A DNA stretch of 64,000 bases from Flavobacteriales bacterium (GTDB lineage Bacteria > Bacteroidota > Bacteroidia > Flavobacteriales > Flavobacteriaceae): contig WTJI01000020.1 in the NCBI GenBank assembly GCA_011524905.1, positions 10,747 to 74,746 on the forward strand, written 5' to 3'. The position numbers and the translations under genes were made by a program. Shown piece after piece: positions 2,830-26,036 of this stretch; within the stretch, counting starts at the first letter, position 1; each line of letters starts with the position of its first letter. Under the pieces are notes generated by a model, which was not told where the DNA came from, did not search any database, and was given only the letters and a program-made list of their open reading frames with translations.

Positions 2830-4107
2830 TTACCGCACCAATCGCCCGTCGGGCATCACGACCTCTGACAACTGGGCTTTTTGCAGATCTTCTTCGATAA
2901 GGTGGGCACCCGTAAAGTTGGCCCCGTTGATATAGGCCCCTTCAAAATTGGCCCCTTTTAAGTTGCTATAGCTAAAATTACAGCCACTCAGATTGGCCTG
3001 GGTAAAATCAGCAAACATCAAATTGGCGCGGCTAAAATTAGCCCCACTGCAATTGGCTTCTTGGAATTGGGCAAAGCGAAAGTCAGATCGATAACAAATC
3101 ATTTCAGTACACAAGGCCTTTTGAAGTTGGGCGTGCGAAAAATCAGTATAAAATAGCTCAGCTTGAGCCAATTGAGCCGATTGAAGCTGCGCGTAGGATA
3201 GGTCAACCCCATTGAGCTCAATCTTATTCAAATTAGCACGATTCAGATCAATCTCTGCTAAAGAAACCCCAGCATCACAAAGTTCTTCTAAGGCCAACTG
3301 ACGCGCAGGGCTATTTTCAATCCCAACAGCCCGATCAATAACCGACCAAGCTTGGTACTGAAATTGTTTCTTACGTTCGGGTAATTCTTTGATGTAAAGT
3401 AGTACGGCTATAAATATACTCAGGGGCTCCAGGGTATCAATAAATCGCTCGATTAATCTGTTTTCTTGACCCAAATAAGAAACAATAAGAAATAGAACCG
3501 CAGCATAAGAGGCAATTTGCCAACCTGGCTTGGCCCAAAACCAATCGATTATTTTAGTGACTAAGCTTTTATTTTGTCGGCGTTTGCGCTTTTGGGCATA
3601 AGTAAGTTTTTTGGTAGGGCGAAATCTTGGCAACTGTTGCTCTTGAAGCTCTTCCAAATGCGCCTCCAACTGTTTGGAGTCTTCTGTTTCATTATTTTGT
3701 TGTTCCCCGAGCATCAACTGAACCACTACCTGGTAGGTGTCCAGCCAGGCTTGCTCTACTTGATTATTCCACTCAGCTCCAGCTGTTTCCTTTAAAGCTG
3801 CAATCAATGCCTGACCTACGACTGGATAATGTGAGGCTATCACCCCGTAGCCCACATGCTTCTGCCCCAAGTCTGTCAAAACAGAAGTTAAAAAAGCAGT
3901 ATCGCGAATGTTTTCAACCAACAACACCAATGAACCATAAAGCTTTTTAGCTTGTTGTTTCATATCTACATGACGAAACATCGGCTTAAGCTGGGGCGAT
4001 AGTGTAAAAAGCTTTTTATAAAAAAGTGGTGCAAAGGAATCTTGTTTCTCGCGAATTATTAGAAAACTAGTCTCAATCAATTTGGCCGTATCAACTGTTG
4101 ATTCCAT
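2830..4107 (-). CDS. Globin domain fused to membrane segments and pentapeptide repeats
   Basis: Residues 1-135 look like a bacterial haemoglobin domain of the flavohaemoglobin type. They carry a B10-like Tyr about 30 ('LFYKKLF'), E7-like Gln about 51-52 ('MKQQAKKL') and the proximal His 84 in 'LGQKHVGYGV'. A charged linker (about 136-180) leads to two hydrophobic segments (about 198-214 and 227-240). Residues from about 282 onward are A(N/D)L-type pentapeptide repeats ('GANFSRANLMFADFTQANLS'), which should form a right-handed beta-helix. There is no FAD/NAD reductase domain. I chose the ATG at 4107 because the longer track ORF starts with TTG. The gene is single and convergent with bglX. Haem binding is inferred from conserved residues; oxygen or NO sensing is a guess. 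Confidence 0.8.
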   Translation of the reverse strand: MESTVDTAKLIETSFLIIREKQDSFAPLFYKKLFTLSPQLKPMFRHVDMKQQAKKLYGSLVLLVENIRDTAFLTSVLTDLGQKHVGYGVIASHYPVVGQALIAALKETAGAEWNNQVEQAWLDTYQVVVQLMLGEQQNNETEDSKQLEAHLEELQEQQLPRFRPTKKLTYAQKRKRRQNKSLVTKIIDWFWAKPGWQIASYAAVLFLIVSYLGQENRLIERFIDTLEPLSIFIAVLLYIKELPERKKQFQYQAWSVIDRAVGIENSPARQLALEELCDAGVSLAEIDLNRANLNKIELNGVDLSYAQLQSAQLAQAELFYTDFSHAQLQKALCTEMICYRSDFRFAQFQEANCSGANFSRANLMFADFTQANLSGCNFSYSNLKGANFEGAYINGANFTGAHLIEEDLQKAQLSEVVMPDGRLVR

Positions 4108-4231: not shown

Positions 4232-4918
4232 ATGAAAAAGTTATTATTTTTTGTTTTGTCTATTGTATCCCTTGGGGTTTCTGCACAAAACATTCACTTT
4301 GAACAAGTAGGTATTGCAGTTTCTGCCAATTCATCAGACTATGTCCTTGGATTACTAGACGATTTCTACGGATCTATTGAAAAACCTGATGGTGTGTCTA
4401 TTACACTAGATTATGTGTATTTTAAGCCCGAAGAAGTAGCAGCCACCCATTATTTGACATTTGCTGGATCTTTGGAAGGCCTGGCTAAACTTCGCGAAAT
4501 ACGGTCTGGAAGTGCCTATCAGGCTATGAATTCTAGCATTCAAAAATTTGCAAAAGTAGTCTCATTACAGGGTGGGTCAACGCTAATGCGAATGCAGGTA
4601 GAAAAAGCCAATCAACCCATTGCACAGGCCTGGAAATTTCGTGTTGAAGATCCTATGGCCTTTGCTGCAGCGTTTACCAAGCTCACCAAAGGATTTCCAC
4701 AAGAAGGCTATTTGTCATTAGGGCAATTTACGCACGGTACAAGCAGCGATGGTGAAACCCATTATGTGTACACCACCCACAAAGACTATGGAACAGCACT
4801 GGGTTGGGGACCCAAAACACAGCAACAACAAGAAGCTTTTCTGAATTTTCAGAAAAAAACAGGGCCCATCTCTAACTTTCTAGGCTCTATGACCCTGATG
4901 CATGTAAAAACCTGGTAA
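4232..4918 (+). CDS. Secreted protein of unknown function
   Basis: A 228-residue protein with a signal peptide (MKKLLFFVLSIVSLGVSAQ) and a soluble mature part. I recognise no catalytic motif. The layout, with two similar-length halves each containing predicted alternating strands and helices, recalls the tandem ferredoxin-like (ABM/NIPSNAP-type) secreted proteins at 16029 and 21767. That relation is only impressionistic. It is monocistronic, ends in a bidirectional terminator, and has a TATCTTTA element about 24 bases before the ATG that could be the -7 box. Confidence 0.8.
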   Translation: MKKLLFFVLSIVSLGVSAQNIHFEQVGIAVSANSSDYVLGLLDDFYGSIEKPDGVSITLDYVYFKPEEVAATHYLTFAGSLEGLAKLREIRSGSAYQAMNSSIQKFAKVVSLQGGSTLMRMQVEKANQPIAQAWKFRVEDPMAFAAAFTKLTKGFPQEGYLSLGQFTHGTSSDGETHYVYTTHKDYGTALGWGPKTQQQQEAFLNFQKKTGPISNFLGSMTLMHVKTW

Positions 4919-16028: not shown

Positions 16029-16748
16029 TTAGTTGATGGCTTTGACCTGTTCCCATATAACACGTAGTCGGAAGCCATCAGGATCATATTCACTCATTTT
16101 CGACCCTTTTGGAGGATTCCAATCAGTTCTTGAACCGTCCAATGCGTGCATGGCATCTTTCAAAGTGGCATAGCCGTCCCAGGTCATAATGGTGCTCTCA
16201 TCTTGTCCGCTTGGATAAAGTTTATAACCCATACCCCAGTCCGTCATGCCTGTGGAACCAGCTCGAATGGCTTTTTGGTGGTATGGCTTCCACATTTTTT
16301 TATTTTCTTGAATAAAACCGCTGAGATTTTTAGGTCTGGCATAATTAAACACCCAGTACTTACCGCCTTCACCGTCAATGTTGTCTAGAATTTTGTAATT
16401 GTGAATTTCATAAGTGGTATAAGGTGAGGCTGCATCAGCAGGATCCATTCCGTCTAGTGCAGTCGCATCCCATTGTGGGTTGGCCATTGCTTCTATTGAA
16501 GGAAATCCGTTGACAAAAGCATAGTTCACTTCGTTGGTGCCTGCTGTACCAACTTTCTTCATTAAAGCCCAAAGCGTTTGTTGCCCCTTTTCAATATTAC
16601 TTTGTGCTACCTTGGCCCAATATTGCGTTTCCTTACGTTCGAATTCCGCAATGTCTTCCTGAGCAACTGACACGTACATTATGTAATAATACTGAGCTTG
16701 GAGACTACAACTAACAAATAAAATAAAAAGAAAAAACAGTTTTTTCAT
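16029..16748 (-). CDS. Secreted protein with two ABM/NIPSNAP-like repeats
   Basis: A 239-residue exported protein (signal peptide ending 'CSLQAQ'). It seems to consist of two similar ferredoxin-like halves. The first opens 'YYYIMYVSVAQEDIAEFERK' and the second 'KYWVFNYARPKNLSGFIQEN'; both continue with an amphipathic helix and a 'W..(L/M)..' strand. This layout resembles antibiotic-biosynthesis-monooxygenase/NIPSNAP dimeric alpha-beta barrels, here as an internal dimer. There is no obvious cofactor site. It is monocistronic, with its own terminator, and divergent from the stand-alone plug gene. Fold is inferred from pattern only; function unknown. Confidence 0.78.
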   Translation of the reverse strand: MKKLFFLFILFVSCSLQAQYYYIMYVSVAQEDIAEFERKETQYWAKVAQSNIEKGQQTLWALMKKVGTAGTNEVNYAFVNGFPSIEAMANPQWDATALDGMDPADAASPYTTYEIHNYKILDNIDGEGGKYWVFNYARPKNLSGFIQENKKMWKPYHQKAIRAGSTGMTDWGMGYKLYPSGQDESTIMTWDGYATLKDAMHALDGSRTDWNPPKGSKMSEYDPDGFRLRVIWEQVKAIN

Positions 16749-21766: not shown

Positions 21767-22516
21767 TTATTCCATGTTGGGCGGCGAACTCAGTTCAGGT
21801 AAGAGTCGCATATGAATGGCTCTACGACCCCACAAATTTTCAAGTGACTCATTTAAGCCCTTTAGATCTGCCTCGTAAGCGTCTTTCCCAAACATTTTAT
21901 CGTATTGTTCTACCAATAATGGAAAATCCTTTTCGTTGTCAATACGTTGATCAGCGAAATTTTTATGACCAAAGGAGACCAACACGACATTTCCATTGCA
22001 ACCTGAACCACAACTCCATACATTCATTGACAGATTGGAATTTGATTCTTTCATGGCACGGGCAACACGTGTTCGAAAACGCCAAAAATCTGGTGCCCCC
22101 GTATTACTGATAGTGTAAAATAACATACGACTAAGCATATTGGATTCTTGAGTGTCGGGCCTGTGTGAAGCATTTTCGTTAAATGACCAGTACTGAACGT
22201 TTTGTGAACTGTGCATCTTACCAACCGTTTGCTGCCAATATGCATTCCCAGCAGTGTCAACTGTATCAAAATCATCTATTTGATCAGCCACTTGAACCCG
22301 CCATAGCTTTTGGGCATTGGGACCCGAGAGTACTTCAAACGTGTAATAGGCGGGTTGTCCTTTTTTTGAATTGTACTTTTTGGTTTTTAGCGCTGCGAGT
22401 TCTTTGAACTTTGCCATTTTTCCGTCTTTGATGGTCAGATAACGGCTCATAGCGACTTGTGCTTGCAGGGTTGCAGTCAACAATAAAGCTGCTGCAACAA
22501 CTAAATTTCTTGTCAT
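21767..22516 (-). CDS. Secreted protein of unknown function, tandem alpha/beta fold
   Basis: A 249-residue exported protein. I start it at ATG 22516 (MTRNLVVAAALLLTATLQAQ), a clean signal peptide; the track's version adds nine residues. The mature part shows two similar halves with strand-helix-strand patterns ('MSRYLTIKDGKMAKFKELAA'; 'VVLVSFGHKNFADQRIDNEK'), a small Cys-Gly patch ('WSCGSGCNGN'), and a conserved-looking end 'RRAIHMRLLPELS'. The pattern is reminiscent of the tandem ABM-like protein at 16029. No enzyme motif recognised. Confidence 0.78.
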   Translation of the reverse strand: MTRNLVVAAALLLTATLQAQVAMSRYLTIKDGKMAKFKELAALKTKKYNSKKGQPAYYTFEVLSGPNAQKLWRVQVADQIDDFDTVDTAGNAYWQQTVGKMHSSQNVQYWSFNENASHRPDTQESNMLSRMLFYTISNTGAPDFWRFRTRVARAMKESNSNLSMNVWSCGSGCNGNVVLVSFGHKNFADQRIDNEKDFPLLVEQYDKMFGKDAYEADLKGLNESLENLWGRRAIHMRLLPELSSPPNME

Positions 22517-22623
22517 TGATTTGTGTTTATGGTTATATCCCAAATTTAATTAAATGTTGATAAACCTCTATTTTATTGTCCAAAAAATTTAATTCCTTCT
22601 AAAGATTGCCCACTTTTTTCTTC

Positions 22624-23807: not shown

Positions 23808-24425
23808 CTAAAGAAAATTGACCTCCCCGCTGGCCACATCATAGATAGCCCCAACAATATCAATTGTTCCATTGTCGTAAAGCGACTTTAAAACAGGACT
23901 GTCCGACTTGATTTTGGCTATGGTAGCTTCTACATTTTTATGGGTGACCATATCAACAAATTCTTTATTTTTTGAAGAGCGATCTCCCGCATAACTAACA
24001 CCTTCCAAGACACTGTCAAAATTTTTAAGCATATCGGTCAAATTGCCCAACTCTACATGGTCACAAGCGCCTTTAATGGCACCACAGGCTGTATGCCCTA
24101 ACACCAAAATCAGCTTTGAGCCTGCTACTTGACAAGCAAATTCCATACTACCAAGAATATCAGTATTGACAAAATTTCCAGCTATTCTTACATTGAAAAT
24201 ATCGCCTATCCCTTGATCGAAAACAATCTCAGAAGGGACACGTGAGTCAATACAGCCCAAAACACAAGCAAAAGGAAATTGGCCTCCAGATGTGGCTTCA
24301 ACTTGACTTGAATAATTCCTGTCTGCTGGTTGACGCGTAAGAAAACGCTGGTTCCCCTCCTGTAAAAGCGTCAATGCTTGCTTTGGCGTTAGTTTTTGTT
24401 GTTCTATTTGTGTAAATGCATTCAT
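23808..24425 (-). CDS. Beta-class carbonic anhydrase
   Basis: Interconverts CO2 and bicarbonate. The 205-residue protein has the beta-class zinc site: Cys 58 and Asp/Arg of 'GCIDSRVPSE' with His 111 and Cys 114 of 'LGHTACGAIKGA'. No signal peptide, so it is cytoplasmic. It lies 21 bases downstream of a SulP transporter and is likely co-transcribed, which suggests that the transporter handles bicarbonate and the two supply carboxylases or buffer internal pH. Confidence 0.95.
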   Translation of the reverse strand: MNAFTQIEQQKLTPKQALTLLQEGNQRFLTRQPADRNYSSQVEATSGGQFPFACVLGCIDSRVPSEIVFDQGIGDIFNVRIAGNFVNTDILGSMEFACQVAGSKLILVLGHTACGAIKGACDHVELGNLTDMLKNFDSVLEGVSYAGDRSSKNKEFVDMVTHKNVEATIAKIKSDSPVLKSLYDNGTIDIVGAIYDVASGEVNFL

Positions 24426-24446
24426 ATTTTTTAAATTTTTAAGTAA

Positions 24447-26036
24447 TTATGCTGATTCCCGCATGGGACCAAGGTATGTAGTAAAACTATCCGGATTTTC
24501 GACCGTACCGCTTTCAGAAATCAAAATCAATTTGATTCCGTCCAGTTTGGCTTTCTCATTAAAATCCTCCAATATTTCAATAATATCATTGTCCAAATAA
24601 CGTGTCCTAGTTACATCTATTTCAAGTGTTGTTTGATCTGGTATCGCATTAAGTTCGTTCAAAATCGCACCTTTATTGATAAAGGTAACCTCTTCCGCAA
24701 GCGTCATTTTTACGTTCATAACTGTTTCTCCAGATTTTTCCATGTGAAGGAAATGGGAATTTTGATAGCTTTTGATAAGTATGATCACTATACCCACTAC
24801 CAATCCCATTCCTATTCCAACCAGTAAATCGGTAAATACAATCCCCAGTATGGTTATGAAGTAGGGAACATATTGCTTCCATCCGAGTGCAATCATTTTC
24901 TTAAATGTTGTTGGATTAGCTAGTTTATATCCCACAATAAACAATACTGCTGCCAAAACAGAGAGTGGTATTTTATTTAATAATTGAGGTATGGAAACGA
25001 CGGATACTAGTAAAAATATCCCATGAATAATTGCAGACATTTTACTTTTTCCCCCCGATTGAATATTGGCCGAACTTCTCACAATAACCTGCGTAATGGG
25101 TAACCCTCCTATCAATCCAGAAAAAATATTTCCCACGCCTTGCGCCAAAAGTTCACGATTGGTTGGAGTGATTCGCTTATAGGGATCTAGCTTGTCGGTT
25201 GCTTCAACACATAATAGTGTTTCTAAACTTGCCACCAAAGCAATGGTAAAAGCAGTAATCCAAATTTGTGGATTGCCAATCATTGCAAAGTTGGGGAAAG
25301 TAAACTGACCTAAAAAGGAATTCATATCCTCGGGCACAGGCACTTTAACCAAGCCACTGTTTGCTATAGCCCAATAAGTATTTGACACTGTTAGTTGATA
25401 ATATGCTATCCCTACAACAACGGCAACCAATGGTCCTTGTATCAATTGAAAGATCCTTGCCTTCGCAGCAAGAACATTACTCCACAGCAGTAATATCCCT
25501 AAAGAAATAACTGCAATAAGTGTAGCTCCAGGGCTAATATATTGGAACGCAGACGTAATACCGCTAAAGGTATTTGACCCATCGGATTGCATGAAAGAAA
25601 AATCACCTTCTGGGGCTTCATAACCAAAGAAAATGGGTATTTGCTTGAGAATAATAATTAAACCAATGCCAGATAGCATGCCTTTGATCACTGAGGAAGG
25701 AAAATAATATCCAATAATTCCTGCTTTAAGAATTCCAAAAAGTAATTGGATACAGCCACCCAATACCACGGCTAAAAGGAAGTTTTCAAAACCTCCAAGA
25801 GTGCCAATAGCCGTTAGAACAATAGCCGCTAATCCAGCAGCGGGTCCACTGACGCCAATCTGTGAACCACTAAGTGCGCCTACAACAATTCCGCCCACTA
25901 TACCTGCAATTAAACCAGAGAATAAAGGGGCGCCACTTGCCAATGCAATCCCTAAACACAAGGGTAAGGCAACGAAAAAAACGACTACACTTGCCGGTAA
26001 ATCAGATTTAATATTTTGTATTAATGTATTTTTCAT
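24447..26036 (-). CDS. SulP-family anion transporter with STAS domain, probable bicarbonate importer
   Basis: A 529-residue SulP/SLC26 transporter. It opens 'IKSDLPASVVVFFVALPLCL', has the conserved 'SGPAAGLAAIV' and 'GVGNIFSGLIGGLPITQVIV' stretches in about 12-14 membrane segments, and a C-terminal STAS domain (about residues 435-520, 'TTLEIDVTRTRYLDNDIIEI'). Linkage with the beta-carbonic anhydrase favours bicarbonate over sulfate as substrate, but this is inference. A small GCACA-ttgc-TGTGC hairpin lies upstream of the start. Confidence 0.92.
   Translation of the reverse strand: MKNTLIQNIKSDLPASVVVFFVALPLCLGIALASGAPLFSGLIAGIVGGIVVGALSGSQIGVSGPAAGLAAIVLTAIGTLGGFENFLLAVVLGGCIQLLFGILKAGIIGYYFPSSVIKGMLSGIGLIIILKQIPIFFGYEAPEGDFSFMQSDGSNTFSGITSAFQYISPGATLIAVISLGILLLWSNVLAAKARIFQLIQGPLVAVVVGIAYYQLTVSNTYWAIANSGLVKVPVPEDMNSFLGQFTFPNFAMIGNPQIWITAFTIALVASLETLLCVEATDKLDPYKRITPTNRELLAQGVGNIFSGLIGGLPITQVIVRSSANIQSGGKSKMSAIIHGIFLLVSVVSIPQLLNKIPLSVLAAVLFIVGYKLANPTTFKKMIALGWKQYVPYFITILGIVFTDLLVGIGMGLVVGIVIILIKSYQNSHFLHMEKSGETVMNVKMTLAEEVTFINKGAILNELNAIPDQTTLEIDVTRTRYLDNDIIEILEDFNEKAKLDGIKLILISESGTVENPDSFTTYLGPMRESA

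Follow-up and report, generated by a model that had tools for sequence, protein, structure and literature searches.

The chimeric globins known so far combine the globin with a reductase or a signalling domain. For most pentapeptide proteins no function is known, and the membrane-bound ones have hardly been studied. A pentapeptide repeat protein contains at least eight contiguous pentapeptides, which form a quadrilateral beta-helix (PMC8145042). HGbRL of Methylacidiphilum infernorum, a putative globin-coupled sensor whose Lys52(E10) binds the haem in the closed form, has been reported as unique to Methylacidiphilum, and RsbR, a sensor-type globin, is known to have lost haem binding (PMC4476040). 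Here we describe a gene from a Flavobacteriales bacterium, located in a stretch of 64,000 nucleotides which was analysed as a whole (the window), in which a globin, two membrane segments and a pentapeptide beta-helix are joined in one protein. We found no paper describing a globin-pentapeptide fusion in a search that left most subscription papers uncovered. By term search, globin is absent from the pentapeptide review PMC8145042 and pentapeptide is absent from the 2006 globin census PMC1457004. Domain listings generated automatically may well contain this combination. Because of this, and because the literature was only partly covered, we present the protein as a variant of the chimeric globins and not as a new category.

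Architecture of the window protein

The gene is an open reading frame on the minus strand (4107..2830) with an ATG start and 425 codons for amino acids. Its longest frame opens at a TTG (4140), but the ATG was taken as the start because it agrees with the start of the relatives. The features are as follows.

2830..4107, minus strand: whole gene, globin-linker-membrane hairpin-pentapeptide beta-helix (425 aa; ORF, Pfam, AlphaFold2 model)
3697..4092, minus strand: F-type globin domain, residues 6-137 (PF00042; 3wfw, E 3.6e-27; 3s1i, TM 0.92)
4018..4020, minus strand: B10 Tyr30 (alignments)
3952..3954, minus strand: E7 Gln52 (alignments)
3943..3945, minus strand: E10 Lys55, aligned to HGbRL Lys52(E10) (alignments)
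3856..3858, minus strand: F8 His84, proximal haem ligand (alignments)
3526..3696, minus strand: linker, residues 138-194, charged and then strongly basic (sequence composition, model)
3466..3525, minus strand: membrane helix 1, about residues 195-214 (hydropathy; helix in model)
3382..3438, minus strand: membrane helix 2, about residues 224-242 (hydropathy; helix in model)
3262..3381, minus strand: conserved juxtamembrane stretch PERKKQ..YQAWS.ID.A.G...S.AR, residues 243-282 (alignments)
2857..3261, minus strand: 27 pentapeptide repeats, residues 283-417 (PF00805; pentad analysis; model)
3073..3075, minus strand: Phe345, invariant i+2 position, predicted to face outward (alignment of repeats)
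3013..3015, minus strand: Phe365, invariant i+2 position, predicted to face outward, one coil further (alignment of repeats)

A Pfam search of the 425-residue protein matched Globin (PF00042) at residues 29-130 with E 9.9e-16 and Pentapeptide (PF00805) in four stretches with E 1.6e-28, and no further Pfam domain was found between them. The AlphaFold2 model, made from an alignment of 11 rows, has a mean pLDDT of 81 and gives the order globin, helices, beta-helix. Its globin and beta-helix are confident. By Foldseek, the globin matches Hell's Gate globin I (3s1i) with TM 0.92 and rmsd 1.5 over 130 columns, and the repeat part matches solved pentapeptide beta-helices, including the fold of MfpA and QnrB1. 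The linker is of low confidence and floppy, so the coupling path is not visible in the model, and a pTM of 0.49 does not fix how the domains are placed relative to each other. The original prediction, made from the sequence alone, had proposed a globin tethered by two membrane segments to a pentapeptide beta-helix in place of a reductase. Pfam, hydropathy and AlphaFold2 agree with this architecture. The globin profile matches the N-terminal part, the structure prediction recovers both folds, the tether appears as two hydrophobic segments that are helical in the model, and Pfam finds no FAD/NAD(P)H reductase domain in the protein.

Thirteen K/R residues lie across residues 140-197, in the basic linker ahead of helix 1, and ERKK follows helix 2. 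Because of these charges, the positive-inside rule for membrane protein topology predicts both soluble ends to be cytoplasmic, which would place globin and beta-helix together on the cytoplasmic side of the inner membrane. The hairpin and juxtamembrane motif (Y.AW..ID.A.G...S.AR..AL..L) are also found in proteins that have no globin: cyanobacterial plasmid proteins whose only annotation is pentapeptide repeat-containing, and one gammaproteobacterial protein (G1095, L085/L088), where the 12 kb read around the gene contain no globin. Thus, a self-standing membrane pentapeptide module has been joined to a globin. With its membrane helix, Y.AW..I motif and pentapeptides, the window protein falls into the cyanobacterial membrane-helix/AWQxI/pentapeptide class.

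The C-terminal part is a pentapeptide repeat protein by its 27 pentads, its PF00805 matches and the beta-helix in the model. Its core 'i' positions are 90% L/F/I/M/V, a level reached by 0 of 20,000 shuffles. The repeats of eight globin-coupled proteins align without length change, and all eight have Phe at the positions of Phe345 and Phe365, exactly one coil apart. The pair is absent from the four cyanobacterial relatives examined. The i+2 position faces outward in pentapeptide structures, and the two Phe residues are likely to form a docking patch.

The original prediction had also raised a DNA-mimic role for the beta-helix. A globin-controlled protein binding gyrase in the manner of Qnr or MfpA would have the right fold, as the Foldseek match indicates, but all Qnr and MfpA models fall far short of their cut-offs (Qnr 32.7 of 240 bits, MfpA 22.4 of 360). 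With 10 K/R and 15 D/E in 140 residues the beta-helix has only a mild acidic excess, and it is held at the membrane. We consider this role very improbable. An anti-phage defence protein was also rejected, as PADLOC gives one marginal match (E 0.0065).

The globin and its predicted haem pocket

Among solved structures, the closest sequence relative of the globin is that of HGbRL (3wfw), followed by HGbI, Vitreoscilla haemoglobin and flavohaemoglobins. The globin profile match, the 3/3 fold without helix D and the pocket residues Tyr30 (B10), Gln52 (E7), Lys55 (E10) and His84 (F8) assign it to the HGbI/HGbRL-like F family; Phe44 is at CD1. A flavohaemoglobin-like globin with these B10, E7 and F8 residues had been predicted, and only the Gln moves, from about 51 to 52. 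The prediction had missed the E10 Lys and, as described below, the gene pairs, the double globins and the presence of the module beyond Bacteroidota.

CD1 Phe and E10 Lys are present in 9/9 membrane-pentapeptide-coupled globins of our alignment and E7 Gln in 8/9, with Met in G1155. In the same alignment E10 Lys is common in ordinary flavobacterial single-domain globins, and it is thus not specific to a sensor role. Other residues occupy E10 in a flavobacterial flavohaemoglobin (Ala; L010), in two cyclase-linked globins (Leu; L008, L009) and in two Nostoc globins (Gln/His). Since Lys55 aligns with Lys52 of HGbRL, closure of the haem by Lys and His is a reasonable prediction for the window globin, although not one specific to the fusion.

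The cyclase-linked globins, in two other Flavobacteriaceae genomes (L008 1471-2826, L009 1480-2820), stand at the C-terminus of their proteins; in the L008 protein a 2Fe-2S ferredoxin and a nucleotide cyclase domain precede the globin (Pfam), suggesting an unusual redox/gas-sensing cyclase. Paired globin frames were seen in G803 (L051 965-1405, 1318-1902) and G656 (L053 1627-2121, 2132-2617). The frame at L051 965-1405 has lost F8 His and CD1 Phe and is a degenerate globin next to an intact one.

Two assignments of the window protein were rejected. It is not a flavohaemoglobin, as it contains no reductase domain and reaches 73.7 of 432 bits with the NCBIfam Hmp model, over the globin part only. 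An S-lineage globin-coupled sensor is also not indicated: the globin matches PF00042 only, no HemAT is among the best 60 PDB matches listed, and by Pfam the protein contains pentapeptide repeats and no known signalling output domain.

The membrane, and not a gas, might switch the haem between six- and five-coordinate states, which would make the protein a sensor of lipid, redox or acid-base conditions at the membrane surface. HGb-I binds lipids and changes its coordination with lipid and pH (PMC11203436). The conserved E10 Lys and the attachment of the globin to a membrane hairpin are in line with such a switch, but the lipid effect is known only in a soluble globin of a thermoacidophile, and we regard this explanation as improbable.

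Fused and split relatives

A contig scan with the window protein alone gave no matches, and an alignment-based one did. The hairpin/juxtamembrane profile served as the query, as pentapeptide queries were swamped by unrelated repeat proteins. The module is now known from eight loci in seven genomes, including the window, as five fusions and three adjacent gene pairs with 29-84% protein identity. Beyond the window there are four loci in three flavobacterial genomes (one double-globin fusion and three pairs) and three gammaproteobacteria. Searching the whole family revealed a second genus, G605 (MAG PL36329bin_16), which carries the module twice. At L061/L064 a single protein of 591 residues has the order globin-globin-hairpin-pentapeptide, and its second globin has Tyr for F8 His and Phe for B10 Tyr and keeps its fold. 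At L060/L066 the parts are separate, and a globin gene (129 residues) lies 12 bases ahead of a hairpin-pentapeptide gene (303 residues). Scanning genome contigs with a profile yielded two further adjacent pairs in Flavobacteriaceae MAGs, with gaps of 6 bases (L065) and about 70 bases (L068, start uncertain). The gammaproteobacterium Halioglobus pacificus encodes a 577-residue double-globin fusion (L067), and searches around it gave two single-globin fusions, in G1155 (L086/L087) and G1333 (L089). Pfam confirms globin and pentapeptide domains in L064, L067, L087 and L089, and the globin gene comes first in L066, L065 and L068. Phage and viral matches that we examined were plain pentapeptide proteins with neither globin nor hairpin.

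The fusions (window, L064, L067, L087, L089) together with the adjacent genes (L066, L065, L068) link the globin to the membrane pentapeptide protein by gene fusion and gene pairing. At L060 4296-5609 and L065 126-1400 both genes lie in one reading frame, parted by a single stop with a nearby ATG, so that a single step separates the paired from the fused form. In both of two maximum-likelihood trees the three split loci fall into one group, and the split form therefore looks like one inherited state and not like repeated sequencing errors.

The module was found in 2/400 genomes of the window's family and 1/348 of the order sample, in 2/140 of the Halioglobus family, and in 1/321 of the class sample, the one being Halioglobus itself; three more genomes sampled from the same genus as the window, of which two are incomplete, gave no match. 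So sporadic an occurrence would suit an accidental fusion or an assembly artefact without function. However, the order of the parts is the same at all eight loci and the pocket residues are conserved across their wide range of identity. Independent genomes carry the same architecture, and these copies refute the accident, which we find hardly credible. Because a rare combination recurs in unrelated marine bacteria, the protein is probably a true gas- or redox-sensing device.

Protein identity between the G1155 and G1333 genes is 84% and DNA identity 78%, while their flanks share nothing and the genomes belong to different families. The G1333 gene has a G+C of 0.49 vs 0.547 in its surroundings. 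These data together point to transfer of the gene alone, and the module, rare as it is, probably moves between hosts. The coupled globins cluster in both trees, with 0 of 500 label shuffles as tight. In the second tree a branch with 100/99 support parts them from the resident flavobacterial single-domain globins, and recruitment from these was rejected as they fall across that branch. The two trees disagree on whether Nostoc single-domain globins belong inside the coupled group, and several branches are long; the coupled globins may form a single clade, which the AU test does not reject (p-AU 0.36).

The same architecture thus exists elsewhere in Bacteroidota, where the original prediction had suggested looking for it. 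Among the loci compared no output partner gene was found, and no neighbour gene recurs beside the module. By sequence reading, a desaturase-like gene lies upstream in L067 and tyrosine-degradation dioxygenase-like genes lie downstream in L061; a neighbourhood of O2-dependent enzymes was rejected as a clue, since such genes occur near these two loci and not near the others. In the window, Pfam gave no match for the protein at 4232-4918 (+), whose gene diverges from that of the globin; it is small and looks similar to those at 16029-16748 (-) and 21767-22543 (-), all with signal-peptide-like starts. By their sequence, two adjacent genes at 23808-26036 (-) resemble those of a beta-carbonic anhydrase and a SulP-type transporter.

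A sensor is supported by an intact globin without a reductase and by the nearest solved relative, HGbRL, a putative sensor. On the other hand, B10 Tyr and E7 Gln suit NO dioxygenation equally. The strongest rival of the sensor reading is a membrane-tethered NO dioxygenase or O2 carrier, which would destroy NO or feed an oxidase with the help of an unlinked reductase, the hairpin and beta-helix serving only to position the globin. This globin retains the flavohaemoglobin residues B10 Tyr, E7 Gln and F8 His, no other PF00042 globin was found in its genome (90% complete), and double-globin forms could mean more capacity. Against this, there is neither a reductase domain nor a conserved reductase neighbour, the proximal His is lost in one tandem globin, and a beta-helix with conserved surface residues exceeds the needs of an anchor. 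We judge this rival rather unlikely.

Proposed function and comparison with known systems

The original prediction had read the protein as a gas- or redox-responsive membrane device, and this is still the most likely reading. We give about even chances to its more precise form, a haem-based sensor without catalytic output that is anchored in the inner membrane and holds a beta-helix docking platform. In the absence of a bound ligand, the haem would be closed by Lys55(E10), in the manner of HGbRL. When O2, NO or CO binds, or when the redox or acid-base state changes, Lys55 would be freed and helix E and loop CE would move, and this motion would reach the beta-helix by way of the linker and hairpin. 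The beta-helix, without a catalytic site, would act as a docking platform for a partner, perhaps through the conserved Phe345/Phe365 pair, which is predicted to be exposed. Such a sensor explains most of the observations: the missing reductase, the lack of an active site in the partner domain, the gene pairs and the His-less globin of L064.

A broader proposal, which we offer tentatively and with somewhat less than even confidence, is a horizontally moving marine module for membrane haem sensing, in which one or two Lys-His hexacoordinate F-type globins, fused or paired, control a beta-helix platform. If true, it would represent a class of globin-coupled signalling with a structural rather than an enzymatic output. 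A haem domain of known chemistry is here physically tied to a membrane pentapeptide protein, both as a fusion and as a gene pair. This gives a handle on the role of membrane pentapeptide proteins and on what the abundant Lys-E10 single-domain globins sense, and the module could be tested directly through its haem spectrum.

Hell's Gate globin I (PDB 3s1i) shares the globin fold, Tyr B10 and Gln E7 with the window protein but is a single soluble domain. Flavohaemoglobin (Hmp/FHb) is of common globin lineage; the window protein differs in lacking the FAD/NAD reductase and in its E10 Lys, as compared to Ala in L010. The cyanobacterial membrane pentapeptide proteins (e.g. Leptolyngbya boryana WP_172412518.1) have membrane helices, the Y.AW..ID/N....S.AR..AL..L motif and then pentapeptides, with about 35% identity over this stretch. 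However, they lack the Phe345/Phe365 pair, and neither the proteins themselves nor the few kb of flanking sequence read contain a globin. HglK of Nostoc is described as a membrane-anchored pentapeptide protein with a cell-envelope phenotype, but it has four membrane helices, 36 pentapeptides and no globin (PMC8145042).

HGbRL (PDB 3wfw, 3wfx; PMC4476040), whose globin is the closest by sequence among solved structures, has in common with the window protein an N-terminal F-type globin, B10 Tyr, E10 Lys and a non-enzymatic partner, and both are putative sensors. Its output is Roadblock/LC7, with neither membrane hairpin nor pentapeptide beta-helix. Globin-coupled sensors of the HemAT and RsbR type likewise couple an N-terminal globin to another domain, and Bacillus subtilis RsbR and the second globin of L064 have both lost the haem His. 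These sensors belong to the S lineage, in contrast to the F lineage here, and have MCP, STAS or cyclase outputs that the window protein lacks. The window protein would thus work like a globin-coupled sensor without belonging to that lineage.
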